From Candidatus Magnetocorallium paracelense (GTDB taxonomy: Bacteria; Nitrospirota; Thermodesulfovibrionia; Thermodesulfovibrionales; Magnetobacteriaceae), in assembly GCA_029001845.1 (NCBI GenBank), contig JAREWP010000037.1:1-54269 (forward strand): a stretch of 54,269 bases of DNA, written 5' to 3'. Positions 12,765-45,114 of the stretch are shown one piece after another (positions within the stretch are counted from its first letter, which is position 1; each line of letters starts with the position of its first letter). The notes under the pieces were generated by a model. That model was not told where the DNA came from and did not search any database. It saw only the letters and a list, made by a program, of their open reading frames with translations. A program made the position numbers and the translations under genes.

Positions 12765-13451
12765 TCAACTGCCTGCATCGAACATGTATCCCACTCCCGG
12801 TACTGTCACGATGTATTGAGGATTTGTAGCGTCTTTTTCGATCTTCTGTCTTATATGCTGAATGTGAACATCGATAACTCTGCTCCATGAATAGAGAGAG
12901 GAGTTCTTCCAAACGCTTTTTCTGATTTTCTCTCTTTCTATTACTTCTCCTTTGTTGGCGATAAAATACAGAAGAAGATCGTATTCTTTCGGGGTCAGAT
13001 CGACCTGTTTGTCCCTTACTTTTACAATTCTTTTGCGTTTATCGATATCTATGTCGCCGCAGCTGATGTTATCACTGTTTTGTTCCGACGTTCTTCGCAG
13101 GCAAGCCCTTATTCTGGCCAACAGCTCGAGCGTTTCGAAGGGCTTTACAACATAGTCATCGGCGCCGCACTCCAATCCCAGTACTTTATCAGAGACTTTA
13201 TCCTTTGCCGTTAAAATGATTACAGGTGTATTCACTCCGCCTTCCCTGAGTCTGCCGCACATTTCAATGCCGTCACCATCGGGAAGCATCAGATCAAGGA
13301 TAATAAGATCGAATTCTTCTTTCTCCAGTATTTGTTCCGTATGCCCGAGATCCTCGGCGGTGGTGACATGGAAATTATGAATTTCAAGATTTGCTTTTAA
13401 TACCTTCAGTATGTCCTGGTCGTCATCAACGACTAAAATTCTCTTTTTCAT
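12765..13451 (-). CDS. OmpR/PhoB-family response regulator
   Basis: This 228-residue regulator has a receiver (D10-D11, phosphoacceptor D53 in IILDLMLPDGDG, K103) and a C-terminal winged helix (about 130-225; RKRIVKVRDKQVDLTPKEYDL and RVIDVHIQHIRQKIE). I chose ATG 13451, one base after the upstream kinase stop and preceded by AGAGG. A longer in-frame extension would overlap the kinase. The spacing shows a coupled pair with the haem-sensor kinase. The pair is divergent from the octahaem cytochrome gene, which is its most obvious target, but no direct-repeat binding site was identified with confidence. Confidence 0.93.
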   Translation of the reverse strand: MKKRILVVDDDQDILKVLKANLEIHNFHVTTAEDLGHTEQILEKEEFDLIILDLMLPDGDGIEMCGRLREGGVNTPVIILTAKDKVSDKVLGLECGADDYVVKPFETLELLARIRACLRRTSEQNSDNISCGDIDIDKRKRIVKVRDKQVDLTPKEYDLLLYFIANKGEVIEREKIRKSVWKNSSLYSWSRVIDVHIQHIRQKIEKDATNPQYIVTVPGVGYMFDAGS

Positions 13452-13452
13452 T

Positions 13453-15168
13453 TCAAACCTCTGCCATTTGTAATTTGAAATAGAATGTGCATCCTCTATC
13501 CTGAGTGTTAAAGAGTCCAATCTCGCCGTTATGCGCTTCGATAATGCCTTTACATATTGCAAGACCGAGACCGCTGCCGTAGTGAGATCCCTTTTTGTAA
13601 TACTTTTGAAATATATGCTCTCTCTCCTCATCGGCAATTCCCGGGCCGTAATCGGTTATCTCGGTAATTGCGCCGCCTGGGGCGGGGTAACTTCTTACTT
13701 CTATGGAACCGCCTTCTTCCGTAAAGTTGATTGCATTGTTTATAAGATTGATGAGTACTTGTTTAATTCTGTCGCTGTCGGCATACACCCTGATTTCACT
13801 CTCCAGATTGACATTAATTTCAATATTCCTCTTATTGATTATAGCCATAAATCCTTTAACGACTTCAATTATCAGATATGTAAGATAAACCGGAATAATA
13901 TGCATTTCCAGCCTGCCAAGTTCAAGACGTTCCATATCTATGGTGTTGTTAACTATTTTTATGAGCCTGTCTGCGTTGTTTTTTACGATACCGCAGAATT
14001 CCTTTATGTCCTTCGTTTCGCCGTCACAGGCGTCAATATTCTTTATCCTTTCGAAAATATAATCCATCGCCCCTTTTATCGATGTCAGGGGGGTCCTCAT
14101 CTCATGGGAGATACAGGCAATAAAGTCTGATTTTTTAACGTTAATTTCCGCCAGTTTGTTGTTCGCCTCTATAAGTCTTGTGTTTGTCTCCTTCAGATTT
14201 TTCACGGCATCTTTGACTTTGAAGTCCAGACCGTTGTGGTAATCGTCCAACTCTTTTGTCATATAAATAAATGTTTTACGGAGATCGGCGATTTCATCGC
14301 CTGAGCTGTAAGGCGCTTCGGCGCCTGACTTCCTTTTACCGTATTCTTTTATAAACGATATCAGGTTCAACAGCGGTCTGACGACTATAATATGAATTGT
14401 AAAAAAGAGAGAAAGTACAATAATTGCCGAAATCATATAGGTTATGAAAATCGTTTCTCTCTTGTTTTTCTTTACAAGTTCGACAATATCGTCAGAGGGA
14501 ATTGTAATGCTCAGGGCGCCGCGTATTTCACCGTTTTTGTCGCCGTACCTGGCGTGGCATTTCAGGCAGGATTCTTCCACATAGAGGGGTGCAATATATC
14601 TGAAAAAAGTTTTATTGTCCATTTCTTCGATTCTGAAAAATTCGGTAATTTGGCGATCCCCTGAAAAAAGCGTCATACCCTCTTTTTCAAAATCGTCGGG
14701 AGCATTTTCCGGATTAACGGGATCGAGGCTGGTCATATGATACCAAAAGACTCCTTCCTTTTTCGCGTATCCTGAAATCTCTTTTATCATCTTAACGACA
14801 TTTTTTCTTTTATTATTCCGCTTATCTGAAGTCTCTGAAGAGTATGGTTTTTTAGGTAATGAATCTGTTATGTCACTTTGGGAACGCTTTTGAGGTGAAA
14901 GCTTTTGGGCGGATGTTATGTCGTGATCCGCCAACCACTCTCTTGTCAGCAGTATTTGTCTGTACAGTGTCTCTGCCTTCAAACGGTTTTGGGAATACAA
15001 AAGGTTCTCATATCTCTTACCCATAGCGCGAAAGGTTACACTAAGGGAGATAATTAAAATAACCGTGACTATAAAAATAATTTTAAACTGAAAGCCCGGG
15101 TAATATTTTTTAAAAGAGCCGGAAGAAGTCAAATTATTATTAATTATAGAATTCTGGTAACTGTTCAC
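13453..15168 (-). CDS. Histidine kinase with covalent-haem sensor domain (DUF3365/Tll0287-like)
   Basis: The 571-residue membrane kinase has TM1 (about 30-47), a periplasmic domain (about 48-240), TM2 (about 240-263), HAMP, HisKA with H355 in SHEMRTPLTS, and HATPase_c (DYGPGI, GSGLGLAICKGII). The periplasmic domain contains a c-type haem motif CLKCH (C201-H205) and the TSLDPVNPENAPDDFE stretch typical of Tll0287-like haem domains, proposed as redox or small-ligand sensors. The start is uncertain: GTG 15168 lies inside an inverted repeat without a ribosome binding site, and a TTG 12 codons further in is possible. It is paired with the OmpR-type regulator and faces the octahaem cytochrome gene. 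A nitrite, NO or redox signal is plausible but inferred. Confidence 0.9.
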   Translation of the reverse strand: MNSYQNSIINNNLTSSGSFKKYYPGFQFKIIFIVTVILIISLSVTFRAMGKRYENLLYSQNRLKAETLYRQILLTREWLADHDITSAQKLSPQKRSQSDITDSLPKKPYSSETSDKRNNKRKNVVKMIKEISGYAKKEGVFWYHMTSLDPVNPENAPDDFEKEGMTLFSGDRQITEFFRIEEMDNKTFFRYIAPLYVEESCLKCHARYGDKNGEIRGALSITIPSDDIVELVKKNKRETIFITYMISAIIVLSLFFTIHIIVVRPLLNLISFIKEYGKRKSGAEAPYSSGDEIADLRKTFIYMTKELDDYHNGLDFKVKDAVKNLKETNTRLIEANNKLAEINVKKSDFIACISHEMRTPLTSIKGAMDYIFERIKNIDACDGETKDIKEFCGIVKNNADRLIKIVNNTIDMERLELGRLEMHIIPVYLTYLIIEVVKGFMAIINKRNIEINVNLESEIRVYADSDRIKQVLINLINNAINFTEEGGSIEVRSYPAPGGAITEITDYGPGIADEEREHIFQKYYKKGSHYGSGLGLAICKGIIEAHNGEIGLFNTQDRGCTFYFKLQMAEV

Positions 15169-15335
15169 AGAGTTCAGAGATCGGTGATCTGTTTAAAAAA
15201 GTTTGCCTGATTTTTCATGCCAAGAACTCGTAAGAAGGTTGAAATGCCAATTATGCTCGTGAAATTCAATTTTTAAAGTCCCTTTTACTTTCGACTGATC
15301 TCAGATCACGGTGAACAGTTACGAATTCTGTCAGA
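15145..15335. repeat. Inverted repeats in the kinase/cytochrome divergent region
   Basis: AGAATTCTGGTAACTGTTCAC (about 15148-15168) is matched, inverted and with two bases missing, by GTGAACAGTTACGAATTCTG (15312-15331). A second pair of arms lies inside (GAGATCGGTGATCTG and CTGATCTCAGATCAC). The unit is about 190 bp and overlaps the first codons of the kinase gene. It looks like a miniature palindromic element. It could also hold the control region for the divergent genes. Confidence 0.65.
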
Positions 15336-15583
15336 TTTATTGAAAATTAACAGTGTTTATCTTTAAATTAACTGTCAGTTATTTTAAAATTTTAAATCGC
15401 TCTAAATCAATCGGATATTGTATAATTATCAGGAAATCGGATTAAGGCTTGAAGGATTAAGGATTAAGGGATAGATGAATTCTTATAATTCAATGGTGTT
15501 ATCTCAGAATTAATCCTTATCCCTTTAAGCCTTCAATCCCAAACTGCTGCTTCGGCAGCTTAACTCGATATGGAGGTGGAGTA
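15169..15583 (+). promoter_or_regulatory. Divergent control region upstream of the octahaem cytochrome
   Basis: This 415-bp gap has no gene. It contains the right arm of the inverted repeat above, an AT-rich stretch with a TATAAT at 15421-15426 (no good -35 partner seen), the imperfect palindrome at 15436-15540, and a small GCTGC-TTCG-GCAGC hairpin at 15546-15559. A strong ribosome binding site GGAGGTGGAG (about 15571-15580) precedes the ATG at 15584. I could not assign a regulator site with confidence. Confidence 0.4.
15436..15540. repeat. Imperfect palindromic element (GATTAAGGCTTGAAGG type)
   Basis: The left arm, made of GGATTAAGGCTTGAAGGATT and AAGGATTAAGGG, pairs imperfectly with the right arm TTAATCCTTATCCCTTTAAG plus CCTTCAATCC. 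The unit lies 43 bp upstream of the cytochrome start, so it is probably within its 5' leader. Only one copy is seen in this window. Confidence 0.6.
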
Positions 15584-16936
15584 ATGAAAATCAGGAGTTT
15601 GTTATTAGTAATACTTATGGCTGTCTCTGCAATTGCCTTGTTATCCGGCAATGTGTACGCCGGTATCAAAATAAGCGAAGATTCGCAGGCATGTCTGAGC
15701 TGTCACAAATCAATGAATCCGGGAATTGTGGTTCCCTGGGAAGAAAGCAGGCATGCCAGCGCCGGAATCGGTTGCTATGAATGTCATCGAGCCGAAAAAT
15801 CGGACAGAGACGTCTTCGATCATAACGGCTTTGATATTTCCGTTATTGTTTCACCTAAAGATTGCGCCAAGTGCCATGCCGACGAAGTAAGGGAGATGAC
15901 TCAGTCTCACCATGCAAAGGCCAATAAATTCACAGGTTCTCTTGATAATGTACTCGGAAGGGTCGTCACGGGAGAGGCGAATTTCGATCTCGGGTGCGCG
16001 CAGTGTCACGGCTCTAATGTAATTGTCGGTCAGGACGGAAAACTTGTGACCGGCCCCTGGCCCAATACAGGTATTGGAAGGTTGAATCCCGACGGTTCGA
16101 ACGGCACATGCGTGGCATGTCATCAGAGACACTCCTTTAGCGTTGCCCAGGCAAGAGACCCCTATACGTGCGGTAAATGCCATCAGGGACCCGATCATCC
16201 CCAAATAGAAATCTTCTTATACTCCAAGCACGGTATTGCCTGGCACTCCAACAAGGATAAAATGAATATGGAAAAATCGAAATGGGTTCTCGGGGAAGAC
16301 TATTTTCAGGCCCCCACATGTGTCACATGTCATATGGGACAATCAAGAAAAGTCTCTCGTACGCATGATGTGGGATCGAGGATATACTGGACTCTGAGGC
16401 CTGTTATTTCAAAGCCTCTGCCGGAAGGTGAAAAGAGAAGAGCCAGGATGAAAAAGGTTTGCTCCGAATGCCATCAACAGCCATGGATTGATGGATTTTT
16501 CACTCAATTCGACAGATATGTGGAGCTTTATAACGAGAAATTTGCAAAACCTGCTTTGGATATAATGAAATTTTTGAAAGCGGAAAATGTAACGGACCCC
16601 ACTCCTTTTAACGAGCAGGTGGAAATCGACTTCTGGCATCTCTGGCACCATGAAGGCAGAAGAGGACGCCACGGCGCTTCCATGAACGCACCTGACTGGT
16701 CTCACTGGCACGGGATGTATGAGGTCGCTCTGAATTTCTATTTTCATCTGTTACCACATGCCGACAAAGCCGTAGCCGGTAAGGGTGACAGCGATCTCCT
16801 CAAAAGGTGGGAGGACTTAAGGAGCGGTATACTCGACAGGCAGGAACATAAGTGGTTTGGCGGAATGCCTAAAGAGGAACTGAGAAAGATAGTTGACTTC
16901 TATAAAAAGAGATACGGCAAGGAAGGCGGACAATAA
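15584..16936 (+). CDS. Octahaem c-type cytochrome, hydroxylamine-oxidoreductase-like
   Basis: The 450-residue precursor has a signal peptide cut after about residue 26 (NVYA-G) and eight CxxCH motifs: CLSCH, CYECH, CAKCH, CAQCH, CVACH, CGKCH, CVTCH and CSECH. The order, the His-rich linkers and the C-terminal block HWHGMYEVALNFYF match the HAO family of periplasmic octahaem enzymes. In the PDxxxWHG region (about 366-373) I read Trp-Ser-His where oxidative HAO, from memory, has the haem-crosslinking Tyr. That favours a reductive enzyme (nitrite or hydroxylamine to ammonium), as in epsilonproteobacterial HaoA. No NrfH/HaoC-like quinol dehydrogenase is adjacent. It stands alone before a strong terminator and is divergent from the haem-sensor kinase. 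The family is sure; the direction of catalysis is inferred. Confidence 0.9.
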   Translation: MKIRSLLLVILMAVSAIALLSGNVYAGIKISEDSQACLSCHKSMNPGIVVPWEESRHASAGIGCYECHRAEKSDRDVFDHNGFDISVIVSPKDCAKCHADEVREMTQSHHAKANKFTGSLDNVLGRVVTGEANFDLGCAQCHGSNVIVGQDGKLVTGPWPNTGIGRLNPDGSNGTCVACHQRHSFSVAQARDPYTCGKCHQGPDHPQIEIFLYSKHGIAWHSNKDKMNMEKSKWVLGEDYFQAPTCVTCHMGQSRKVSRTHDVGSRIYWTLRPVISKPLPEGEKRRARMKKVCSECHQQPWIDGFFTQFDRYVELYNEKFAKPALDIMKFLKAENVTDPTPFNEQVEIDFWHLWHHEGRRGRHGASMNAPDWSHWHGMYEVALNFYFHLLPHADKAVAGKGDSDLLKRWEDLRSGILDRQEHKWFGGMPKEELRKIVDFYKKRYGKEGGQ

Positions 16937-16984: not shown

Positions 16985-17028
16985 ATATTTGTCACGAAAA
17001 TAGACGAATGCGAACCGGAAGCATCAGC

Positions 17029-17093
17029 AATGTCCCGCCAAAACAAGCTGAAACTCGTAAACTCAAACGCCACCTTGTTTTGGCAAGACATCA
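17029..17093. repeat. Imperfect inverted repeat (GCCAAAACAAG)
   Basis: TGTCCCGCCAAAACAAGCTG (17032-17051) pairs with CACCTTGTTTTGGCAAGACA (17071-17090), two arms enclosing a 19-bp loop. The minus strand across it is open for about 60 codons, but the reading frame is low-complexity and has no start signal. I take it as a palindromic element rather than a gene. Only one copy is seen here. Confidence 0.5.
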
Positions 17094-17183
17094 CTGCTGC
17101 TTTTATCCATATTCATGTTTTGTGGTGAACCGGAGGTTCATGAATTTTGGACTGTAAATATAAATAAAAGAGTATCTGATAAG

Positions 17184-17942
17184 ATGGTGAAAAAAAATAT
17201 TTTACTTGTACTTTTAATGGTTTTGTACTTATGTATCTCCATACCTTATGTTATTGCTTTTGACAATAAGGATATGGAAAAAGCGCAGCTAAGGAACAGC
17301 GATGTGGATTTCCAAAATAATCCTGTTGATTATATGGCTTCTATTTATAGAGACTACCATGACTGGAGGATTGATGAGGGGTTAAAAAAATCCGACGCTG
17401 CAATCGGTATTGTTGACAAGATATATATTAAAGATCCTGAAAAGGAGTTTTCCGATCCGAAACTAAAGCTTAAAAAAGCATCGCAAGTGAGATCGACATT
17501 ATATACGCTCCTTGGAATGCTCAAATACAGGAAGTTTCTGACAACGGGGCATAAAGCAAGAGAAGAAGCCTACAGCCCTTTGATGGAAAAAATTAAAAAG
17601 GGAGAAGAATTAAGTGAAGACGACTTGGAGTCAATTGCCGGAGAGATCGAGGGAAGAGAAACCGATATTCAGGTAAAAAGCCTGTTCCGGGAAACTGTAA
17701 CAGCCTTTGAAACAGCAGTCAAAAGCGACCCCTCCAACCCTGCGCCACATTACCAACTTGGAACGGTATACAACGCTGCAACAGACAGCGATTACTCGAT
17801 GATTGCTGAAAAGGAATTTTACATATCCTATAAGTTGTCACTTAAAGAGGGGGACACTCAGGCGGCAGAGAGATCGCTCGAGGCGTTAAGGAATGTTAAC
17901 GAGAAGTCGGAATATCTAAAGCGTATAGAGGTTGGAAAATAA
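17184..17942 (+). CDS. Exported TPR-type protein
   Basis: I chose ATG 17184, which gives a 252-residue protein starting MVKKN with a clear signal peptide (VLLMVLYLCISIPYVIA, then FDNKD). An in-frame ATG at 17115 adds 23 residues ahead of the signal peptide and is unlikely. The mature part is helical and charged. Near the C-terminus (about 170-225) a TPR-like unit reads AVKSDPSNPAPHYQLGTVYN. The next gene overlaps it by one base and is also an exported TPR protein, so the two are probably co-translated and may form a complex. The position just after the octahaem cytochrome is suggestive, but a strong terminator separates them. The function is unknown. Confidence 0.75.
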   Translation: MVKKNILLVLLMVLYLCISIPYVIAFDNKDMEKAQLRNSDVDFQNNPVDYMASIYRDYHDWRIDEGLKKSDAAIGIVDKIYIKDPEKEFSDPKLKLKKASQVRSTLYTLLGMLKYRKFLTTGHKAREEAYSPLMEKIKKGEELSEDDLESIAGEIEGRETDIQVKSLFRETVTAFETAVKSDPSNPAPHYQLGTVYNAATDSDYSMIAEKEFYISYKLSLKEGDTQAAERSLEALRNVNEKSEYLKRIEVGK

Positions 17943-18400
17943 TGATGATTAAAGGGAGAGGCCGTCTTTTTATAGTATTATTTATTTTATTATTGCTCCT
18001 GTTTTCACCTGGTCAGCTCCTTTCCCAGACAAGCTCGTCTATTACTCAAAAAAGCGGTCCAATGCCTCCGCCTTCTGTTGAGGGGCTCGACGATTACAAA
18101 AAATTTATTGTATTTGCAGGCAGATATATTGAAGAGGGAGATTATGGCAATGCTTTGGATTCTCTTCACAGTGCCGAAAAAATCAGAGATAACGATCCTC
18201 TGTTGTATGAACTCCTCGGCATCGTGTACGATTCCGAAAGGATGTCTGAAAAGGCCTATGGGTATTATAAAAAGGCGGGAGAGATGTACCTGGCATCGGG
18301 TAATACAGATAAAGCCTGGAATATGCTCGGGTGGATGAGAACAGTGAAAATGGATTCAAAGGAAGTCCTGGATTTCGAGAAGAGATTGAAGGAGCGTTGA
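17942..18400 (+). CDS. Exported small TPR protein
   Basis: This 152-residue protein has an N-terminal hydrophobic segment (about 9-25; signal peptide ending near LLSQ) and two to three TPR-like helices (AGRYIEEGDYGNALDSLHSA, LLYELLGIVYD, EKAYGYYKKAGEMYLASG). Its start overlaps the stop of the upstream TPR gene (TAATG). It probably acts in the periplasm as a protein-binding partner of its neighbour. No catalytic motif is visible. Confidence 0.78.
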   Translation: MMIKGRGRLFIVLFILLLLLFSPGQLLSQTSSSITQKSGPMPPPSVEGLDDYKKFIVFAGRYIEEGDYGNALDSLHSAEKIRDNDPLLYELLGIVYDSERMSEKAYGYYKKAGEMYLASGNTDKAWNMLGWMRTVKMDSKEVLDFEKRLKER

Positions 18401-33929: not shown

Positions 33930-35402
33930 ATGACATCTAATAATCTGAATCTGTTCGACTTCTCGAAACCCAACATCAGACTGCTCCACCTGACATGGTT
34001 TGCATTTTTTCTTACATTTGCGATTTGGTTCAGTCATGCGCCTCTGCGTGACCTGATCATTGCTTCGTTCGGTATGACAAAGGCCCAGTGGAAAGCATTA
34101 ATTGTTTTGAATGTGGCTTTAACGATTCCCGCCAGAATCGTTATCGGCATTTTGGTTGATAAGCTCGGTCCCCGTCTGGTCTACAGCGGACTTTTGATCT
34201 CCTCCTCTTTTTTCTGTTTTGCCTTTGCCTTTGCTCAGACCTATGAGCAGCTTGCACTTTTCCGCTTTCTGCTTGGTTTTGTGGGGGCAGGATTTGTAAT
34301 CGGCATCCGTATGGTTGGTGAATGGTTTCCTGCCAAACAGGTCGGGCTGGCGGAAGGGGTTTACGGCGGCTGGGGAAATTTCGGCTCTGCTGCGGCAGCC
34401 ATGACCCTGCCTACGGTTGCCCTGCTCTTTGGAGGAGAAAACGGATGGCGTTACGCCGTTGCATCGACAGGCGTATTAGCACTGGTTTACGGTTTTTTAT
34501 ACTACTGGAGAGCAAGAAATACCCCAAAGGGGTCTACATATTTTAAGCCGAAAAAGAGCGGCGGACTGGAAGTGGCCAATAAGAGGGATTTCTGGTTTTA
34601 TTTGGCAATGAACATTCCTATGTACGTCATACTTGCCGTGCTGGCATGGAAACTCTCTCCTTCGGGAGTCAGTCTTCTTTCCGGTACAACAGTGAACTTA
34701 CTCTATGCTTTTTTGATTGTACTTGCCGCCATTCAGTTCAGTCAGATATATAAAGTGAACAAAGAGATGCTGAGAAGTGGTGCTGAAGAACACCAGAAGT
34801 ATAACTTTAAGCAGGTAGCTCTCCTTGACTGGGCTTATTTTGTTACATTCGGATCGGAGCTGGCCGTTGTTTCCATGCTGCCCGGCTTTTTCATGGATAC
34901 ATTCGAAGGGCTGACGGTGGCTCAGGCAGGTCTTTTGGGATCGGTGTACGCCTTTATGAATCTGGCGGCTCGACCTGGAGGCGGATGGATCAGTGATAAA
35001 TTCGGCCGTCGTCGTTCCATGATGATTCTTGTGGCGGGACTGGCTCTTGGGTATTTGATTTTATCTACCATCAATGGCTCATGGCCGATATGGTTGGCAG
35101 TCATTGCAGTTATGTCATGCTCCTTTTTCGTACAGGCCGGGGAGGGCGCGGTGTTTGCTATGGTGCCGCTGGTCAAACGGCGTTTAACAGGACAGATTGC
35201 CGGTATGGTAGGCGCTTATGGTAATGTCGGCGCTGTTACTTATCTCACTACCTTTACATTTGTAGATGCAAGCACCTTCTTTCTGGTAATTGCCGGCTCT
35301 GCAGTGATCTGCTTTTTTCTGGTATTATTTCTGGACGAACCAAAGGGCCACACAACGGAAGTGCTCCCTGACGGTACTGTGCAATTTATAGAAGTAAGCT
35401 GA
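33930..35402 (+). CDS. narK: Nitrate/nitrite transporter, MFS NarK family
   Basis: The 490-residue membrane protein has 12 predicted transmembrane segments. The family signatures are the Arg-containing [19 protein letters not shown] and the nitrate-signature glycine-rich [13 protein letters not shown], plus [17 protein letters not shown] in the second half. It takes up nitrate and/or exports nitrite across the inner membrane. It is the first gene of the nitrate cluster and is followed by a hairpin and the kinase/phosphatase gene. The extra loop in the middle (about 200-270) has two more hydrophobic stretches than usual, so the segment count could be 14. Confidence 0.92.
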
Positions 35403-35416
35403 AGTAAAGACAAGGC

Positions 35417-35458
35417 ATCAGGCAAGAGGCATAAGTTTTTATGCCCCTTGCCTGATTT
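35417..35458 (+). terminator. Long hairpin between narK and the kinase-phosphatase gene
   Basis: ATCAGGCAAGAGGCATAAG pairs with CTTGCCTGAT and TATGCCCC to make a nearly perfect stem around TTTTT, followed by only TTTATAAAA. It ends about 10 bp before the next ATG and likely works as a partial terminator or attenuator between narK and the downstream genes. It may also hide the start region, which has no ribosome binding site. Confidence 0.65.
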
Positions 35459-35468
35459 TATAAAAACG

Positions 35469-37199
35469 ATGTCAACAAAGCATTTGATCAATCAGTTGGA
35501 AGTCGAAATTTTTCAGTCTTCCCTGCGTGGTGAAAAGTCGGAAAATCAGGATGCCCTGGGGGCCAGATTACCTGAAGACGATCTGGCTGTGACCAAAGGG
35601 ATTGCTTTGATTATAGCAGACGGTGTGAGTGCTGCAGAAGCTGCAAGGGAAGCGAGTCACTCCTGTGTCATCGGCTTCTTATCGGATTATTATGCGACTC
35701 CCGATTCGTGGAGCGTTAAACAGTCTGCACAGTGCGTGCTGCAGTCTCTTAATCGATGGCTTTACGGCCGGAGTCAGATTCATATACAGGGCCGGGGTTT
35801 TATAACGACAATGAGCGTATTAATTATAAAATCCGGATGCGCCCATATTTTTCATGTGGGAGACGCAAGAATTTACAGGTGGAGAGACAACGATCTGGAG
35901 CAGCTTACGGAAGATCATGCCCATCATTATTCAGGGCACAGACACTACCTCTCCAGAGCGATCGGGGCCGATATTTTCCTGGATATTGACTATCGTATGA
36001 CAGATGTCCGAAAGGGCGATATCTATCTCCTCTCAACGGACGGTATACATGATTTCCTGACTCACAGGCAAATCCTTGAAGTAATGTCTGAACATAGTGA
36101 GAGCACAGAGGAAATCGTTACTATATTAAACGGCAGAGCCATAGAGGCCAAGAGCGATGACAATATGAGTTGCCAGGCCATTCGCATTATCGATCAACCC
36201 GACCAAAAAGGCGATGACGCCTTTCGATTGCTCAAAGAGCTGCCTTTCCCGCCGGATCTGGAACCCGGTCAAATAGTGGATGGTTGGAAAGTTATCAGAC
36301 AGATTCATGCCAGTACGAGAAGTCAGCTCTATCTGGTCGAGGATAAAGAGGGAGCGCGTTGTGTAATGAAAACCCCTTCCGTAAATTTTGAAGACGATCC
36401 GGGGTATATTGAGCGATTTGTTATGGAAGGATGGATCGGTTCGAGAGTGCAGAGCCCCTATGTTGTTAATATTGTACCTTCAACGGAAAAACGAACGTTT
36501 CTGTACTATCTTACAAAATATATTCCCGGGCTGACTCTGAATCAGTTAATAGAGGAGCGCGGGAAACTGGAGGTTACAGATGCAATCGATATTACGGAAC
36601 AGATTTCAAAAGGCTTGAGAGCCTTTCACCGCAAAGAGACCCTTCACCAGGATTTAAAACCGGATAATATTGTCATAGGTAAACACGGGGCAGTGATTAT
36701 CGACTTCGGATCGTGTCTGGTTGCCGGGATCGATGAGATTCAGGGGCCTTTTCAAAGGGAGGTTGCTTTGGGTACAATAGATTATTCCGCTCCTGAATAC
36801 CATTATGGAGGAAAACGTTCGGAAAGGAGCGATCAGTTTTCCCTGGCCCTGATTCTCTATGAAATGCTTACCGGCGAACACCCCTATGGTCGACAATTCG
36901 AGCATTGCAAAACGCTTCAGGATTTTCAAAGGTTAAAATACAAGCCTGCCCGTACATTCAGTCCTATGGTCCCTCTTTGGATTGACGGAGCCATCAACAG
37001 GGCGTTAAGTGTATCACAGGAACAACGTTATGAATCTCTGTCAGAGTTTATTTATGATCTCAAACATCCAAATCCAAAATACCTTTGTGCAACGGACAGA
37101 CCATTAATAGAAAAGCATCCCCTTCTGTTTTGGAAAATAGTGTCCACTCTTTTACTGGTCGGAAATTTGGTGTTTTTTTATCTGTTGAGTTTTCAATGA
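35469..37199 (+). CDS. PP2C phosphatase-Ser/Thr kinase fusion, membrane-anchored
   Basis: From ATG 35469 the protein has 576 residues; TTG 35448 lies inside the hairpin and is less likely. An N-terminal PP2C domain (about 10-240) has RGEKSENQDA, ADGVSAAE, GDARIY, STDGIHD and DDNMS with its metal-binding acids intact. A protein kinase domain (about 265-530) follows: VMK lysine, LHQDLKPDN catalytic loop (HQD instead of HRD), IDFGS and GTIDYSAPE. A C-terminal membrane anchor is at about 550-575. Fused kinase-phosphatases are known next to nitrate transporters in other proteobacteria. Here it lies between narK and narG and may control one of their products. The target is unknown. Confidence 0.92.
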   Translation: MSTKHLINQLEVEIFQSSLRGEKSENQDALGARLPEDDLAVTKGIALIIADGVSAAEAAREASHSCVIGFLSDYYATPDSWSVKQSAQCVLQSLNRWLYGRSQIHIQGRGFITTMSVLIIKSGCAHIFHVGDARIYRWRDNDLEQLTEDHAHHYSGHRHYLSRAIGADIFLDIDYRMTDVRKGDIYLLSTDGIHDFLTHRQILEVMSEHSESTEEIVTILNGRAIEAKSDDNMSCQAIRIIDQPDQKGDDAFRLLKELPFPPDLEPGQIVDGWKVIRQIHASTRSQLYLVEDKEGARCVMKTPSVNFEDDPGYIERFVMEGWIGSRVQSPYVVNIVPSTEKRTFLYYLTKYIPGLTLNQLIEERGKLEVTDAIDITEQISKGLRAFHRKETLHQDLKPDNIVIGKHGAVIIDFGSCLVAGIDEIQGPFQREVALGTIDYSAPEYHYGGKRSERSDQFSLALILYEMLTGEHPYGRQFEHCKTLQDFQRLKYKPARTFSPMVPLWIDGAINRALSVSQEQRYESLSEFIYDLKHPNPKYLCATDRPLIEKHPLLFWKIVSTLLLVGNLVFFYLLSFQ

Positions 37200-37309
37200 G
37201 ACAAGGCGAGGGGTGACGGTGGGAAAGGGTTGGGAAGAGAGGCTTGAGAATTGAGTGTTTATAAAAATGCTTTGTGTGAGAAAAATTTTTTACTCATGTC
37301 GGAGGAGTA

Positions 37310-40300
37310 ATGAGTCGGTTTTTGGAAAGATTACGTTTTTTTGACAGGAAAAAGGATGAGTTCGCTGACGGTTTCGGTGTGATTACTAATGAAGACCGTT
37401 CCTGGGAAGAGATATACAGACAGCAGTGGCAATATGACAAGATCGTTCGTTCTACTCACGGGTGCAACTGTACGGGATCGTGCAGTTGGAAGGTTTATGT
37501 AAAAGACGGATTCATCTCAAGGGAAGTTCAGCAAACCGATTATCCGCGGACCAGACCGGATATTCCGAATCATGAGCCGCGAGGTTGTCAGCGCGGTGCA
37601 AGTTACTCCTGGTATACATATGGCGCCAATCGTATTAAATATCCCATGATTCGTAAGACTCTTTTAACTATGTGGAGAGATGCCCGTAAAAGCCTGTCAC
37701 CTGTTGATGCATGGGCTTCTGTTGTGGAGTCGACGGATAAGGCGACTGCTTATAAAAAAGCACGTGGCATGGGAGGATTCATCCGTTCTTCATGGGACGA
37801 GGTGAATGAGATCATTGCAGCCGCCAATATTTATACCATAAAACAATACGGGCCTGACAGGATTATCGGTTTTTCTCCGATCCCGGCAATGTCCATGGTT
37901 TCCTATGCCGCAGGTTCTCGTTACCTCTCTCTGATTGGCGGAACATGTATGAGCTTTTACGACTGGTACTGCGATCTTCCTCCTTCCTCTCCAATGACCT
38001 GGGGCGAGCAGACCGATGTGCCTGAGTCAGCGGATTGGTATAACTCTACATATATAATTGTTTGGGGATCGAATGTACCGCAGACACGCACGCCTGACGC
38101 TCACTTTTTAACGGAAGTTCGTTACAAAGGGGCAAAAACAGTGGTAATTACACCTGATTACTCCGAAGCAGCCAGATTTGGCGATATCTGGCTGAGTCCG
38201 AAGCAGGGAACCGATTCAGCACTTGCTCTGGCTTTAGGCCATGTGATTTTAAAAGAGTATTTTATCGAAAAGCCAAGGAAATATTTTATTGACTATTGTC
38301 TTCAGTACTCCGATATGCCTATGCTTGTGTTGTTGGAAGAGCATGGAAACAATCTTTTTAAATCCGGTCGTTTTCTCCGCGCTTCCGATTTTTCCGAAAA
38401 GCTTTGTCAGGGTGATCGCATGGAATGGAAAACCCTTGTATGGGACGAGATTAGTGACAATCCCGCTGTTCCCAACGGATCGATCGGTTTCAGGTGGGAT
38501 AAAAACGGTCTGTGGAATCTCGATAATCGTGAAGCTTTGGAAGGTAAAGATATCAGACCCTTACTCAGTTTTATCGATTGTCTGTCTCAACGTGTTCAGG
38601 CGGCCTTCCCTTATTTTGGAGGCGATGGTGACGAGAATATCGTTATTCGCACCATACCGGTACGAAAAATTGTATTAAAAGATGGCAAAGAGGCCCTTGT
38701 CACTACGGTTTTCGATCTGATGACAGCGAGTTACGGCATTGAAAGGAAGTCCGCCGGCGAGGTGTCACAATCGACTTATGACGATGAAGCCCCTTACACG
38801 CCTGCATGGCAGGAAAAGATGACAGGCATTGCCAGAGAAAGAGTAACAGGTATTGCACGGGAGTTTGCAGAGAATGCAGAAAAAACAGGCGGCAAGTCAA
38901 TGATTATTGTGGGAGCTGCTTTAAACCACTGGTACCATGGGGATATGAGTTATCGCGGTCTGATCAATGTACTGATAATGTGCGGCTGTGTCGGCAAATC
39001 GGGCGGTGGTTGGGCCCATTATGTGGGACAGGAAAAACTTCGTCCCCAGACAGGTTGGTTACCCCTTGCCTTTGGCCTTGACTGGCATCGTCCGCCGCGC
39101 CATATGAACTCGACCTCCTTCTTTTATGCTCATTCCGAGCAGTGGAGGCATGAAAAGCTGAATACCAGAGATATCCTCTCTCCGCTGGTTGATAAAGAGA
39201 GCTATCCGGAACATCCCATCGACTGGAACGTAAAGGCCGAGCGTATGGGCTGGCTGCCATCGGCGCCTCAACTCAACAGAAACCCCCTTCATATTGCAGG
39301 AGAAGCTGACTCTGCAGGAATGGAAACAGAAGAATTTCTTGTTAATAACCTTAAAAGCGGTAATCTCTCCTTTGCAAGTGAAATGCCTGAAGATCCGAAG
39401 AATTTTCCAAGAAATATTTTTGTGTGGCGGTCCAATGTTTTAGGTTCGAGCAGCAAGGGACATGAATATTTTCTAAAGTATTTACTGGGTACACGAAACG
39501 GTGTAATGAACGACGGTTTGAACAATGCGGAATTTTCCGTACCTGAAGAAGTCAAATGGCATGAGAATCCTCCTGAAGGTAAGCTGGACCTTGTGGTTAC
39601 ACTGGATTTTCGGATGTCCTCCACATGCGTATATTCCGATATCGTTCTTCCCTGCGCCACATGGTATGAAAAAGATGATCTCAGTACAACGGATATGCAC
39701 CCCTTTATCCATCCCCTTACCAAAGCAGCAGAGCCGGCTTGGGAAGCTCGTTCTGACTGGGATATTTTTAAAGGAATCGCCGCTGTCTTTTCCCGAATGT
39801 CAAAAGGGATTCTTGGTTCGGAAAGGGATGTGGTAATGGTTCCGATACTCCACGATACGCCGGGGGAACTGGCTCAGGCCATAGGAATCAGAGATTGGAA
39901 AAAGGGGGAGTGCGATCCTGTGCCGGGTAAAACAATGCCAAATATATTCGTTGTGGAGAGACATTATCCCGATACGTTTAAGAAGTTTACTTCCCTTGGC
40001 CCTTTAATGGAAAAAATCGGTAATGGCAGTAAAGGGATTTCCTGGAAAACAGACGAAGAGGTGGAATTGGTCGGCCGCTTAAACAAAAGGGTAGTAGAAA
40101 ATGGCGTGAGCCTGAATCGACCTGTCATTAACTCTCCTGTTGATGCGGCGGAAGTTATACTCTCTCTCGCCCCTGAAACCAATGGTCATGTCGCCGTAAA
40201 AGCATGGAAGGCTTTGGAGGGTTTTACGGGAAAGGAGCACTCCCATCTGGCAGTATCCAGAGAGAGCGAAAAAATTGGTTTTCATGATCTGAAAGCTCAG

Positions 40301-41005
40301 CCCCGTAAGATTATTACCTCTCCTACATGGTCGGGCATCGAAGATGAGAGTGTTACTTATAATGCAGGCTATACCAATATCAACGAATCGATCCCCTGGA
40401 GAACTCTCACCGGAAGGCAGCAGTTCTATCAGGATCATGAGTGGATGGCTGCCTTTGGAGAACAATTGGTTGTATATAAGCCGCCAATCGATACAAAGAG
40501 CATAGATTCCGTGAAGGGGAAAAATTCAGCAGGCAATCGTGAAATTGTTCTTAACTGGATCACTCCTCATCAGAAATGGGGGATTCACAGTATGTACTCG
40601 GAAAACCTGATTATGCAGACATTGTCGCGTGGCGGGCCTGTTGTGTGGATAAGCGAGAAAGACGCCAAAGAGGCGAAAATCAGGGACAATGACCAGGTGG
40701 AAATTTTTAACTCCAACGGTGCTTTAACATGCCGCGCCGTGGTAAGCCAGCGAATTGGCAAAGGAATGATTCTGATGTATCATGCTCAGGAGAGGATATT
40801 GAATATCCCCGGTTCCGAGACGACCGGTACGCGAGGCGGTCACCACAACTCGGTGACAAAGGTTGTTACCAAACCAACCCATATGATCGGGGGGTACGCC
40901 CATCAGTCATATGGCTTTAACTATTACGGTACTGTGGGATGTAACAGAGATGAGTTTGTCGTTGTCAGGAAAATGAGTCATGTCGATTGGCTGGAGGGAA
41001 AATGA
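37310..41005 (+). CDS. narG: Respiratory nitrate reductase, catalytic subunit
   Basis: The 1231-residue molybdopterin enzyme reduces nitrate to nitrite at the cytoplasmic face of the inner membrane. It is close to E. coli NarG throughout. The FS0 [4Fe-4S] ligands are H50, C54, C58 and C93 (STHGCNCTGSCSW and PRGCQRG), and the Asp-containing GGTCMSFYDWYCDLPP segment carries the Mo ligand. An extra Cys (C52) lies inside the FS0 loop. There is no twin-arginine signal, which marks the cytoplasm-facing type rather than the exported archaeal or nxr-like type. The ribosome binding site is GGAGGAG. The stop overlaps narH by ATGA. Confidence 0.97.
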   Translation: MSRFLERLRFFDRKKDEFADGFGVITNEDRSWEEIYRQQWQYDKIVRSTHGCNCTGSCSWKVYVKDGFISREVQQTDYPRTRPDIPNHEPRGCQRGASYSWYTYGANRIKYPMIRKTLLTMWRDARKSLSPVDAWASVVESTDKATAYKKARGMGGFIRSSWDEVNEIIAAANIYTIKQYGPDRIIGFSPIPAMSMVSYAAGSRYLSLIGGTCMSFYDWYCDLPPSSPMTWGEQTDVPESADWYNSTYIIVWGSNVPQTRTPDAHFLTEVRYKGAKTVVITPDYSEAARFGDIWLSPKQGTDSALALALGHVILKEYFIEKPRKYFIDYCLQYSDMPMLVLLEEHGNNLFKSGRFLRASDFSEKLCQGDRMEWKTLVWDEISDNPAVPNGSIGFRWDKNGLWNLDNREALEGKDIRPLLSFIDCLSQRVQAAFPYFGGDGDENIVIRTIPVRKIVLKDGKEALVTTVFDLMTASYGIERKSAGEVSQSTYDDEAPYTPAWQEKMTGIARERVTGIAREFAENAEKTGGKSMIIVGAALNHWYHGDMSYRGLINVLIMCGCVGKSGGGWAHYVGQEKLRPQTGWLPLAFGLDWHRPPRHMNSTSFFYAHSEQWRHEKLNTRDILSPLVDKESYPEHPIDWNVKAERMGWLPSAPQLNRNPLHIAGEADSAGMETEEFLVNNLKSGNLSFASEMPEDPKNFPRNIFVWRSNVLGSSSKGHEYFLKYLLGTRNGVMNDGLNNAEFSVPEEVKWHENPPEGKLDLVVTLDFRMSSTCVYSDIVLPCATWYEKDDLSTTDMHPFIHPLTKAAEPAWEARSDWDIFKGIAAVFSRMSKGILGSERDVVMVPILHDTPGELAQAIGIRDWKKGECDPVPGKTMPNIFVVERHYPDTFKKFTSLGPLMEKIGNGSKGISWKTDEEVELVGRLNKRVVENGVSLNRPVINSPVDAAEVILSLAPETNGHVAVKAWKALEGFTGKEHSHLAVSRESEKIGFHDLKAQPRKIITSPTWSGIEDESVTYNAGYTNINESIPWRTLTGRQQFYQDHEWMAAFGEQLVVYKPPIDTKSIDSVKGKNSAGNREIVLNWITPHQKWGIHSMYSENLIMQTLSRGGPVVWISEKDAKEAKIRDNDQVEIFNSNGALTCRAVVSQRIGKGMILMYHAQERILNIPGSETTGTRGGHHNSVTKVVTKPTHMIGGYAHQSYGFNYYGTVGCNRDEFVVVRKMSHVDWLEGK

Positions 41006-42375
41006 AAATAGGCTCACAGATTGCAATGGTTCTGAACCTGGATAAATGTATCGGTTGCCATACCTGTTCGGTTACTTGTAAAAAGACGTGGACATCACGG
41101 GAAGGTATGGAGTACGGCTGGTTCAACAATGTAGAGACCCGGCCCGGGCTTGGTTATCCGAGAGAGTGGGAGAATCAGGAGAGATGGAAGGGAGGATGGA
41201 AACGGCTTGACAATGGAGCTATCGTACCGGGCATAGGAACGCGGGCCCGTGTTTTGTCAAAAATATTTGCAAACCCAGATTTGCCGGAAATAGACGACTA
41301 CTATGAGCCCTTTGATTTTGACTATGGCCGTCTCCATGAAGCTCCCGAGTCGGACCACCAGCCAATTGCCCGTCCGCGTTCGTCCATAACCGGCAGGACA
41401 ATGGAAAAAATAATGGCAGGGCCTAATTGGGATGATTCCCTTGGAGGCGAGTTTGAAAAGAGAAGTCGCGACAGGAATCTCGACAATACTCAAAAAGAGA
41501 TTCTCGGTGAATTTGAAAACACTTTCATGATATCTCTTCCCCGTTTATGTCATCACTGCCTCAACCCCGCATGTGTGGCGACATGTCCTTCCGGTGCAAT
41601 TTACAAGAGAAAAGAAGACGGTGTTGTGCTGATAGATCAGGAGAGGTGCAGGGGATGGAGAATGTGTATAAGCGGTTGCCCCTATAAGAAGATATACTAC
41701 AATTGGAAGTCTGGAAAATCGGAAAAGTGTATATTCTGTTATCCCAGAACAGAGTCCGGTATGACGACGTTGTGTTCGGAATCCTGTACAGGCAGGCTCA
41801 GATACCTTGGAGTGTTATTATACGACAAGGATGAGATTCAACGTATTGCATCGATTCCTTCGGAAAGTGATATATATGAGAAGCAGATCGGGATTTTTTT
41901 AAACCCCCATGATTCTGAAATCATTAAAGCGGCGGGACAGTGTGGGATTTCCGATTATACAATAGAAATTGCTCAAAAATCACCGGTGTACAAGTTCATC
42001 GTGCAATGGAAACTCGCCTTTCCTCTGCACCCTGAATACCGCACTCTTCCCATGGTCTGGTATGTACCTCCCTTAAGTCCGATTCGGTCGAATTTCGAAG
42101 AGAGCGGGAAAAGTACAAACAGCGTTATCCCGGATGTGGAATCATTAAGGATTCCCGTTAAATATCTTGCCAATATGTTCACATTCGGAGAGGAAGCCCC
42201 TGTAAAATCCGCTTTGAAGCGCATGCTGGCTATGAGGGCCTATAAAAGAAGTGAGAATGTAGAGGGATTCAAAAATAAAGCCTTTCCGGAAGAAACAGGA
42301 CTTACGGAGCAAGAAGCAGAGGAGATGTACCGGTATATGGCCATTGCAGATTATGAGGATCGTTTTGTTATATAA
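41002..42375 (+). CDS. narH: Nitrate reductase, iron-sulfur subunit
   Basis: The 457-residue electron-transfer subunit carries electrons from NarI haems to NarG. Four Cys clusters are present: CIGCHTCSVTC, CHHCLNPACVATC, CRGWRMCISGC (Trp in place of Cys, giving a [3Fe-4S] centre as in E. coli) and CIFCYPR with CSESC. I chose ATG 41002, preceded by GGAGGG; the frame is open 15 bases further up at a TTG. It is about 55 residues shorter than E. coli NarH, mostly at the C-terminus. The usual next gene narJ is missing. Confidence 0.97.
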   Translation: MKIGSQIAMVLNLDKCIGCHTCSVTCKKTWTSREGMEYGWFNNVETRPGLGYPREWENQERWKGGWKRLDNGAIVPGIGTRARVLSKIFANPDLPEIDDYYEPFDFDYGRLHEAPESDHQPIARPRSSITGRTMEKIMAGPNWDDSLGGEFEKRSRDRNLDNTQKEILGEFENTFMISLPRLCHHCLNPACVATCPSGAIYKRKEDGVVLIDQERCRGWRMCISGCPYKKIYYNWKSGKSEKCIFCYPRTESGMTTLCSESCTGRLRYLGVLLYDKDEIQRIASIPSESDIYEKQIGIFLNPHDSEIIKAAGQCGISDYTIEIAQKSPVYKFIVQWKLAFPLHPEYRTLPMVWYVPPLSPIRSNFEESGKSTNSVIPDVESLRIPVKYLANMFTFGEEAPVKSALKRMLAMRAYKRSENVEGFKNKAFPEETGLTEQEAEEMYRYMAIADYEDRFVI

Positions 42376-42382
42376 CCATTAA

Positions 42383-42536
42383 TAAAAACAGCAGTCAGCT
42401 ATCAGCGGTCAGCCTTCAGCCAGGGAAAGTATTGATGTTATGCCAAGAATAAGCTTCATCTTATGGATGAAGGTGTTTTGAAACATAAAGTGTTGCAATT
42501 TAAAAGCTGATAGCTGACAGCTAAATGCTTATTATT
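42383..42536 (-). repeat. MITE-like element, family A, copy 4, between narH and narI
   Basis: On the minus strand it reads AAGCATTTAGCTGTCAGC ... TTGCAACACTTTATG ... GGCATAACATCAATACTTTC ... GACTGCTGTTTTTA, matching copies 1 and 5. It starts 8 bp after the narH stop and ends 13 bp before the narI ATG. It fills the position where narJ stands in other nar operons. Confidence 0.9.
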
Positions 42537-42548
42537 TAAGAGGTTTTT

Positions 42549-43247
42549 ATGTCCTATATACATACATTACTATTCGGAATATATCCCTATATCGCATTGT
42601 CGGTACTAATCGTCGGATCTATTATGCGATATGACAATGCACAGCATACATGGAAAGCGGGGTCCAGTCAGTTTCTTGGAAATGACGGCATAGGCCCCGG
42701 GAGTCTGCTCTTTCATTTAGGCATTATCTTTAGTTTTTTCGGGCATCTGGCCGGTATGCTGACGCCTGCTTCTTTCTATCACCATATCGTATCGCCTGAA
42801 ATGAAACAGACCTTTGCAATTACTTCAGGAGGGGTATTCGGTATTCTCTGTCTGATTGGTCTGATTATATTAATGCTGCGTCGTTTTAAAAATCCGAGAA
42901 TCGCTGCAACCGGCGAAAAGTCGGATAAATATCTTTTGTTGCTGCTTTGCCTTCAGATTCTGCTTGGACTGCTGAGTATTGTCGTGTCGGCGAAACATCC
43001 TGACGGCTCCATGATGATGCAGTTGGCGGCATGGTCGCAGGCTGTCGTGACATTTCGTCCTTTTACTGCCGTTGAGGCTGTTGAGGGGGTTCATATAATA
43101 TATAAAATGCATATATTTTTAGGATTAACCATATTCCTGATGTTTCCTTTCACCCGTCTCGTTCATATTTTAAGCGTCCCTGTGGGGTACTTGTGGCGTA
43201 CTTATCAGGTTGTAAGGGAGGGGGAAAGCAGCCCTGGAATTAAGTAA
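42549..43247 (+). CDS. narI: Nitrate reductase, cytochrome b (gamma) subunit
   Basis: The 232-residue membrane protein has five transmembrane helices and oxidises quinol, passing electrons to NarH. The four haem-ligand His residues are present in pairs: LLFHLGIIFSFFGHLAG (helix 2) and MHIFLGLTIFLMFPFTRLVH (helix 5). The ribosome binding site AAGAGG overlaps the end of the repeat that precedes the gene. It is followed 38 bp later by the sulfite-reductase-like genes. Confidence 0.95.
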   Translation: MSYIHTLLFGIYPYIALSVLIVGSIMRYDNAQHTWKAGSSQFLGNDGIGPGSLLFHLGIIFSFFGHLAGMLTPASFYHHIVSPEMKQTFAITSGGVFGILCLIGLIILMLRRFKNPRIAATGEKSDKYLLLLLCLQILLGLLSIVVSAKHPDGSMMMQLAAWSQAVVTFRPFTAVEAVEGVHIIYKMHIFLGLTIFLMFPFTRLVHILSVPVGYLWRTYQVVREGESSPGIK

Positions 43248-43285
43248 CAGTTCATCTTGAAAATAAAAAAATATGAGGAGCAAAC

Positions 43286-44290
43286 ATGGGTAAGTCCGTT
43301 AGTACGACAGAGTTTAACGAAATGTTGAAGACTCTGGCAGGCGAATACAGAATATTCGCACCGAAAAGGTTTGTACATCATGGCAAATGTACGGGTACTG
43401 ATCTGATCAGGTATGGAGAAGTGCACTCGTTAGATGAAATCGAGTATAAAGCGAAATCCAATTTCTCGCTAAAGGAGATTCTACACCCCATAAATCAGAC
43501 AATCTTCTATTTCACGGAAACAGAATTTTCCGAGCCTGCCACAGAGAACAAAGGGATTGTCATCTTCGCCAGACCATGCGATATAAACGGCGTTTTCAGA
43601 CTTGATAACATTTTTCTTCATAATGGTGATGAAGAGGACTATTATTACAAAAAACCGAGAGATAAAGTCAGGTTTGTGATGATGGAGTGTACAGTGGGTT
43701 TTGAAAACTGTTTTTGCGTGTCTATGGATACAAACAAGTCAGACGATTATCATATGGCCGTAAGATTTGGAGGAGAGGAATATCTTCTTGATATCAGGGA
43801 TCAGTTTTTTATCGATGTTTTGGAAGGGGTAGGAGAGGATATTGAGTTTACACCTGATTTTATCAAAAGAAATAGAGTGGAAGTAAGACTTCCTGAAATC
43901 GATAGAATGCCGCCGGCTATGTATGATCATGAGATGTGGGACGAGTACAGCACCAGGTGTATTGCCTGCGGACGATGCACCACCACCTGTATCACATGCA
44001 GTTGTTTTACGACAACGGATATTGCCAACGAAGATAATCCCAAGCAAGGTGAGAGACGCCGCACATGGGCTTCCTGTCACATTGAAGGATTTACCGATAT
44101 GGCCGGAGGTCATGGTTTCAGAAAGAAAAACGGCGAAAAGATGAGATTTAAGACGTTGCACAAAATTTACGATTACAACAGGCGGTTCGGAAAAGGACCT
44201 ATGTGTGTAGGCTGCGGGAGATGTGATGACGCCTGTCCTGTATATATCTCGTTTTCCAACTGTATAAACAAGGTGACAAGTTATGTGTAA
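43286..44290 (+). CDS. asrA: Anaerobic sulfite reductase subunit A
   Basis: The 334-residue iron-sulfur subunit carries electrons from AsrB to AsrC. Two ferredoxin-like Cys clusters lie near the C-terminus: CIACGRCTTTCITCSC (about 225-240) and CVGCGRCDDACPVY (about 309-322). Conserved blocks GIVIFARPCDINGV and GFENCFCVSM are typical. The family acts in the cytoplasm in NAD(P)H-linked reduction of sulfite to sulfide. It lies 38 bp after narI with its own ribosome binding site (GAGGAGC), so it may be on the nar transcript. Confidence 0.93.
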   Translation: MGKSVSTTEFNEMLKTLAGEYRIFAPKRFVHHGKCTGTDLIRYGEVHSLDEIEYKAKSNFSLKEILHPINQTIFYFTETEFSEPATENKGIVIFARPCDINGVFRLDNIFLHNGDEEDYYYKKPRDKVRFVMMECTVGFENCFCVSMDTNKSDDYHMAVRFGGEEYLLDIRDQFFIDVLEGVGEDIEFTPDFIKRNRVEVRLPEIDRMPPAMYDHEMWDEYSTRCIACGRCTTTCITCSCFTTTDIANEDNPKQGERRRTWASCHIEGFTDMAGGHGFRKKNGEKMRFKTLHKIYDYNRRFGKGPMCVGCGRCDDACPVYISFSNCINKVTSYV

Positions 44291-44304
44291 AGGAGTCGAT
44301 AGCA

Positions 44305-45096
44305 GTGAATAATCCATATTTACCAAAACCATATCATATTCTGGAAATATTCCACGAATCAGAAACTGAATTCACCTTTAAACTGGAGCGCGATTATGAG
44401 ATTAACTTTGGTCAGTTTCTCCAGGTCTCATTACCGAGGATTGGAGAAGCGCCCATATCTGTGAGTGATTTCGGAGAGGGCTGGTTAGAGATGACAATCA
44501 GGGCTGTGGGTAACTTAACTAAGGATATCTTTAAACTCACGGCAGGCGATAAGATGTTTGTTCGCGGCCCATATGGTAACGGCTTTGATATGAGTGAGTA
44601 TATAGGAAAGCATCTTGTCATTGCCGCCGGAGGAACCGGGCTGGCTCCCGTTCGAAGCATGATTAATCATATTTACAGGGATGAGGGAGTGGTAGAAAAA
44701 CTTGATCTGCTTTTTGGATTTAAAAATCCCTCTTCCATTATCTTTAACAGAGATATTGAGAAGTGGAAAGAGAAATTCGACACCATGCTCACACTCGATG
44801 AAGCCTGCGGACTGGACGGTGTTTGTGAAGGGTTGATCACTAACTATGTTAAAGACGTCAGGCTCTCGGAGTTCGAAAAGATGGCGGTCATTGTAATAGG
44901 ACCGCCTGTCATGATGAAGTATACTGCCGGGGAGTTTGTAGAGAGAGGGGTGCCGGAGGAGAAGATATGGGTCTCCTTCGAACGTAACATGTCCTGCGCA
45001 CTGGGCAAGTGCGGGCACTGCAAAATAGACGAAACATATGTCTGCCTGGAAGGGCCGGTGTTCAATTATTCAAAGGCCGTTAAGTTAATCGATTAA
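44305..45096 (+). CDS. asrB: Anaerobic sulfite reductase subunit B
   Basis: The 263-residue flavin/NAD-binding subunit belongs to the ferredoxin-NADP reductase-like PyrK/AsrB group. It has an FAD-binding beta-barrel (about 1-95), the NAD-binding GTGLAPVRSMI loop (about 112-122), and a C-terminal [2Fe-2S] site CALGKCGHCKIDETYVC. The start is GTG 44305, with AGGAG 10 bp upstream; it is 14 bp after asrA. It delivers electrons from NAD(P)H to AsrA. The operon is interrupted after it by a family A repeat. Confidence 0.93.
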   Translation: MNNPYLPKPYHILEIFHESETEFTFKLERDYEINFGQFLQVSLPRIGEAPISVSDFGEGWLEMTIRAVGNLTKDIFKLTAGDKMFVRGPYGNGFDMSEYIGKHLVIAAGGTGLAPVRSMINHIYRDEGVVEKLDLLFGFKNPSSIIFNRDIEKWKEKFDTMLTLDEACGLDGVCEGLITNYVKDVRLSEFEKMAVIVIGPPVMMKYTAGEFVERGVPEEKIWVSFERNMSCALGKCGHCKIDETYVCLEGPVFNYSKAVKLID

Positions 45097-45114
45097 GAGG
45101 TGACAATTAATAAC

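Follow-up and report, generated by a model that had tools for sequence, protein, structure and literature searches.

A predicted haem-sensing two-component switch for nitrite ammonification, divergent from an octahaem cytochrome gene in Candidatus Magnetocorallium paracelense

The 54,269-nucleotide contig JAREWP010000037.1 of Candidatus Magnetocorallium paracelense (assembly GCA_029001845.1; Nitrospirota, Magnetobacteriaceae, a family with magnetotactic members), hereafter the window, encodes a sensor histidine kinase and an OmpR/PhoB-type response regulator, divergent from the gene of an octahaem cytochrome c of the hydroxylamine oxidoreductase (HAO) superfamily. The pair is linked to genes of nitrate and nitrite respiration in other genomes, the regulators share a recognition helix, and an operator of four direct repeats lies directly upstream of the octahaem gene. 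We consider it probable that these genes form a two-component switch in which a covalent haem sensor activates nitrite ammonification; within this reading, the attachment of the haem, the signal, the direction of control and the substrate of the cytochrome are predictions. An earlier note on this DNA had described a CLKCH-bearing kinase of the Tll0287/DUF3365 type which, with its OmpR-type regulator, faces an HAO-like octahaem cytochrome, and Pfam matches, eight CxxCH motifs and similarity to structure 4qo5 bear this out. The interval it quoted, 13453-16936, contains the kinase and the cytochrome, with the regulator just outside, and its coordinates for the intergenic region, 15169-15583, are correct.

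The kinase has, in order, a transmembrane helix, a periplasmic sCache_haem (Tll0287/PF11845) domain, a second transmembrane helix, HisKA and HATPase_c; the transmembrane helices were read from the sequence. Residues 96-224 match the Tll0287-like Pfam family PF11845 at 69.6 bits (cut-off 24.1), and HisKA and HATPase_c score 46.4 and 85.5 bits. CLKCH, residues 201-205, lies inside the PF11845 domain, and the CXXCH is invariant across the aligned orthologues (52 kinase rows). The sensor domain was modelled with AlphaFold2 (mean predicted local distance difference test score 77); the first Foldseek match of the model is Tll0287 itself (5b82, E 1.7e-6), with 3b42 second, and 5b82 is also its top structural match (Z 12.7). 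As modelled, the domain has the Cache fold of these two structures. The NO-sensor subgroup of sCache_haem proteins is marked by the lack of an axial Cys ligand and by an open distal site. Apart from the pair in CLKCH, the sequence of the modelled segment has no cysteines; the model itself is haem-free. There are nine PF11845 domains in the genome. In the regulator, Response_reg and Trans_reg_C are the only domains above the Pfam cut-off, and its recognition helix, YSWSRVIDVHIQHIRQKIE, is near-invariant in the aligned regulators that adjoin the kinase.

The cytochrome has exactly eight CxxCH motifs, all kept in its relatives, and no CxxCK motif. Its closest solved relative is 4qo5, the IhOCC of Ignicoccus hospitalis (E 1e-54, or 6e-87 by family profile), with the HAOs ranking after it (8e-37 with the family profile). 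The two proteins share eight haems and a Trp at the aligned C-terminal position; the window protein differs in being shorter and bacterial, and in having Asp204-His205, the pair of the HAO active site, where IhOCC reads Asp-Val. Hydroxylamine-oxidising HAOs (P460) have a Tyr cross-linked to the catalytic haem. The Trp of the window protein, residue 372, stands at a PDYTQWHG-type position at which several relatives read Tyr, and the profile alignment with the solved HAOs stops short of this region. Work by Parey et al. in 2016 is said to have found that IhOCC reduces nitrite and hydroxylamine. There are three octahaem paralogues in the 6.0-Mb genome, the third of which sits on a long branch.

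Among 395 sampled genomes of the phylum, 53, that of the window included, have an orthologue of the kinase (E at most 1e-90); the DNA around the other 52 was taken and its neighbouring genes clustered. Nitrogen-respiration genes are carried by 35 of the 53 loci, window included, which is far above chance: NapA-like genes by 24, NrfA or octahaem nitrite reductase (ONR) genes by 18, and octahaem genes of the window type by 11. The NapA cluster is mixed, with one representative far over its NCBIfam cut-off and others NapA-like yet below it; the NrfH representative exceeds its own cut-off, and each NrfA/ONR protein has exactly one CxxCK. Counted by gene, 22 of 41 NrfA/ONR, 11 of 25 octahaem and 9 of 12 NapA genes lie within 15 kb of the kinase, where random placement would put 0.5, 0.3 and 0.15. 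On the octahaem tree, proximity to the kinase must have changed state six times or more.

Octahaem and NrfA/ONR genes never occur in the same locus (11 loci with octahaem alone, 18 with NrfA/ONR alone; Fisher p 3e-5), and the slot directly 3' of the regulator holds an octahaem gene in some loci and NrfA/ONR in others. This mutual exclusion in the same slot suggests, from gene order, that the octahaem cytochrome takes the place of the nitrite reductase in kinase loci. The earlier note had proposed that the divergent arrangement be sought elsewhere. It recurs only in Denitrovibrio (Deferribacterota), and what is conserved is the linkage of the pair to nitrogen genes within 15 kb. In one genome, G354, a strong operator site (21.5) lies downstream of the regulator at the extreme end of a contig, and its most window-like octahaem gene (73%) starts at the edge of another contig; the two may adjoin.

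Because the recognition helices of the regulators are nearly identical, we looked for a DNA site that they might share, searching the regions upstream of nitrogen genes with our own expectation-maximisation script (not MEME). A first run on 55 regions, which included the window promoter, served only to seed the shape of the motif, and the motif was then refitted on 54 regions with the window left out. The strongest initial motif was the Shine-Dalgarno sequence and was set aside. The refitted motif, aAAATTTACAnaatcTTTACAnncaTTAACagCanATTTACa, spans 42 bp and contains four direct repeats, with the consensus TTTACA-N5-TTTACA-N4-TTAACA-N5-TTTACA. The repeats start 11, 10 and 11 bp apart, as is usual for the OmpR/PhoB class. 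The motif is present in about 27 of the 54 training promoters, nearly always on the gene strand and mostly 80-250 bp before the start, and in a scan of 1.25 Mb the sites scoring above 9 nearly all precede NapA, ONR/NrfA, NrfH or octahaem genes (training promoters included).

In the window the best site on either strand is the predicted operator directly upstream of the octahaem gene, which scores 12.3 against 4.6 for the next site in the 54 kb. Its score was reached by 0.05% of Markov-simulated regions, and 0.01 such matches would be expected in the window by chance. The site still ranks first when all octahaem promoters are removed from training (13.2 against 5.0) and when one whole family is dropped; trained on that family alone, the lead is narrow (5.0 against 3.1), and with just the ten octahaem promoters as training set the search neither converged on the motif nor picked the window site. 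A plain pattern of four TTWAYW repeats with spacers of 5, 4 and 5 matches the 6-Mb genome with one mismatch or none at a single place, 15336-15373, and two of its eleven two-mismatch matches, which overlap each other, sit immediately before the second octahaem gene (contig C16). Since a control with the pattern reversed produced about as many matches in total, the evidence lies in the positions of the sites and not in their number. The pattern N5-N5-N5, whose middle spacer is one base longer than in the learned N5-N4-N5 spacing, was rejected and serves as a control, with 3 one-mismatch and 12 two-mismatch matches and none in the window. The regulator site that the earlier note had expected in the intergenic region is, by this computation, predicted there from a motif learned in other genomes.

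Several promoters have a TA-rich, -10-like hexamer about 11 bp past the operator, the commonest offset among operator promoters, and a candidate in the window stands at this distance (Table 1). Such spacing is the geometry of PhoB-type activation. From this distance between operator and hexamer, the regulator is likely to be a tandem-binding activator.

Table 1. Features of the window discussed in the text, with strand and basis or remarks.
Feature	Position	Strand	Basis or remarks
OmpR/PhoB-type response regulator	12765-13451	-	Pfam; begins 1 bp past the kinase stop
Sensor histidine kinase	13453-15168	-	571 aa, GTG start; Pfam and orthologue alignment
Dispersed repeat, about 170 bp, resembling a miniature inverted-repeat transposable element (MITE)	15157-15325		Imperfect terminal inverted repeats 15157-15185 and 15294-15322
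Predicted regulator operator	15332-15373	+	TTTATT-N5-TTAACA-N4-TTATCT-N5-TTAACT; window-excluded position weight matrix (PWM)
Candidate -10 hexamer TAAAAT	15385-15390	+	Putative; 11 bp past the operator end
Octahaem cytochrome c, HAO superfamily; predicted nitrite/hydroxylamine reductase	15584-16936	+	450 aa
TPR-repeat protein, downstream of the octahaem gene	17115-17942	+	36.9% identity to L076 protein
Second TPR-repeat protein	17942-18400	+	47% identity to L076 protein
Nitrate module: NarK, PP2C-protein kinase fusion, NarG, NarH, NarI	33930-43247	+	NCBIfam

The operator tends to occur where the kinase does. In the Magnetobacteriaceae, the octahaem promoters of the two kinase-bearing genomes score 12.3, 8.4 and -1.8, and those of kinase-less genomes at most -5.1 (p 0.008, a comparison that leaves out the third, long-branched paralogue at -17.0 and is weaker if it is included). 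In other lineages, the divergent octahaem gene of Denitrovibrio (L188) has an operator-like array (p 0.002 against shuffles), TTTACA repeats lie upstream of NrfA in the Desulfuromonadales (L185; none of 500 shuffles scored as high), and in Caldimicrobium (L189) a site scoring 12.8 precedes ONR. The PWM detected no operator in the deltaproteobacterial locus L186, in which a gene for an NrfH-like quinol dehydrogenase lies directly upstream of the octahaem gene. The tally of other phyla is to be read as 'at least'.

Taken together, the proposed switch would work as follows. The kinase would carry a covalent c-type haem in its periplasmic Cache domain, and a change at the haem linked to nitrogen oxides, most likely binding of nitric oxide (NO), or else a redox or coordination change, would shift its activity. 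The phosphorylated regulator would bind as tandem subunits to the four repeats of the operator, the last of which would occupy the place of the -35 box, so that RNA polymerase would be recruited to the -10 at about 15385 and the octahaem gene activated. The cytochrome would then act in the periplasm, reducing nitrite and also hydroxylamine or NO. In this genome NarGHI would supply the nitrite, and two octahaem genes would belong to the regulon; in relatives the same pair would serve Nap, NrfHA and ONR operons. It also seems moderately likely that this is a multi-phylum regulon, in which the sCache_haem kinase and OmpR-type regulator control nitrate/nitrite ammonification through the four-repeat operator and in which IhOCC-type octahaem cytochromes are the nitrite reductase where the locus has no NrfA/ONR.

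Several observations weigh against this mechanism. The sensor domain of the window (14497-14979) deviates at 20 of the 58 positions with conservation of 90% or more across the orthologues, the highest deviation among the 52 rows (the median sensor deviates at 2%; the kinase core of the window deviates at 7 of 60), and the deviating positions include the HGG(V/I)(F/Y)V and NPAxVT motifs. Because of this divergence the ligand may differ from that of the relatives, as far as conservation in the alignment indicates. The window operator, at 12.3, scores under most others (25-36), with one degenerate repeat. Neither narK nor narG in the window, nor the third octahaem paralogue, gave an operator hit in the PWM scan. 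Of the octahaem relatives compared, the closest (genome G019, 66-69%) has neither kinase nor operator. No nitrogen gene is seen in 18 of the 53 kinase loci, several of which end at contig edges, and kinship among the genomes means that the enrichment P values overstate independence.

With the same circuit and operator, the haem could instead sense general redox potential, and not NO or nitrite, through Fe(II)/Fe(III) and ligand exchange, and an oxidised periplasm would turn the octahaem gene on. The loss of several family-conserved residues in the window sensor speaks for such a signal, as do GSU0582 and GSU0935 of Geobacter, which are proposed to signal through a redox-linked change of spin state (PMC8396549). 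These proteins bind NO in both redox states, and their haem ligand changes with redox state (PMC8396549). The targets in relatives are specifically nitrate and nitrite enzymes, however, and the signalling-fused domain tested so far has the kinetics of an NO sensor (PMC12889525). A redox signal is a tentative alternative, with a real though smaller chance of being correct.

It is rather unlikely that the pair controls the octahaem gene for a purpose other than nitrite, such as detoxifying hydroxylamine or NO, reducing sulfur oxyanions or transferring electrons. Promiscuity is a trait of the multihaem enzymes of this superfamily, with TvNiR reducing sulfite too (PMC8840924), and the window holds an asrABC sulfite reductase; against this, the octahaem gene is seen directly 3' of the regulator, in the slot where relatives have ONR, and never shares a locus with ONR, the octahaem of L186 has its quinol dehydrogenase gene directly upstream, and the HAO active-site pair is retained. 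That the genes are chance neighbours, with the pair controlling some other target and the operator-like sequence arising by coincidence or left to decay as a relic once the MITE had inserted, appears improbable. The scarcity of the divergent layout, the MITE between the genes and the weakness of the site relative to those of relatives would all fit such an origin, yet the sole core match with at most one mismatch in 6 Mb sits at the octahaem gene, two more with two mismatches sit at its paralogue, and relatives lacking the kinase lack such sites. We continue to favour a haem sensor that activates nitrite ammonification.

Among known systems, NarXL and NarQP of E. coli are not known to use a haem sensor, and their sensor domain and regulator class are unlike those of the window pair. 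They are likewise two-component systems and control nap and nrf in response to nitrate and nitrite (PMC12285233). Like the window pair, NrfS-NrfR of Desulfovibrio is a two-component system encoded divergently from its neighbour, here the periplasmic nitrite reductase operon nrfHA; it responds to nitrite and has also been proposed for nap (PMC5701242; PMC12285233). NrfR is sigma54-dependent and NtrC-like, whereas the window regulator is of the OmpR/PhoB type, with a four-repeat operator and an octahaem target. ONR/TvNiR and NrfA alternate with the octahaem cytochrome in the same regulated slot and differ in using CxxCK at the active haem, where the window cytochrome has eight CxxCH.

The sensor has its closest known counterparts in the sCache_haem NO sensors of Deshpande et al. 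(2026 preprint, PMC12889525), which share the Pfam family, CXXCH, Cache fold and fusion to a histidine kinase with the window protein; the window protein stands apart by its unusually divergent sensor domain. The preprint reports these sensors to be widespread in Nitrospirota, and describes tight NO binding (koff 6e-4 per s) and no stable O2 complex for a signalling-fused domain from P. azotoformans; no regulon or target genes are reported in the parts consulted (PMC12889525). The earlier note regarded the link between such a haem sensor and a nitrogen-oxide reductase as not established. NO binding by Tll0287-type domains is already published (PMC12889525). The open-access literature yielded no paper that links a c-haem sensor kinase with an octahaem cytochrome or with the ammonification of nitrite.

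The intergenic region also contains the MITE-like repeat, which separates the kinase from the operator and matches at least 40 other places in the genome at 70-91% identity, with 40 of 123 candidates scored. Its terminal repeat includes the GTG annotated as the kinase start; open reading frame starts were assigned mechanically. A possible leader hairpin, the inverted repeat at 15444-15533 (arms of 24 nt, 88% complementary), separates the predicted promoter from the start of the octahaem gene. Another inverted repeat, at 17019-17102 (32-nt arms, 81% complementary), lies between the octahaem and TPR genes and is possibly a small mobile element. The pair of TPR proteins behind the octahaem gene also occurs in genome G019 (L076, 9381-10671), where a NapA-like molybdoenzyme of 1116 aa comes next.

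The Nar module is the probable source of nitrite. NarG, NarH and NarI are above their NCBIfam cut-offs and NarK is slightly below its own; neither NapA (TIGR01706) nor NrfA/ONR (PF02335) was found in the genome. A fusion of PP2C phosphatase and Ser/Thr protein kinase (35448-37199) lies between narK and narG. No NarJ was seen between narH and narI, where there is no open reading frame of 120 aa or more. narH, narI and asrABC follow on the same strand (42376-46331), with asrABC directly 3' of narI.

Cache sensors with a covalent haem are widespread among anaerobes, and their binding of NO was shown only recently. If the proposed switch is correct, the operator before Nap, NrfHA, ONR and octahaem operons would provide a list of targets and a one-gel test for such sensors, and the poorly understood HAO-like octahaem cytochromes would gain a physiological partner. 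Control of ammonium-forming nitrite respiration would then extend to uncultured Nitrospirota, magnetotactic ones included.

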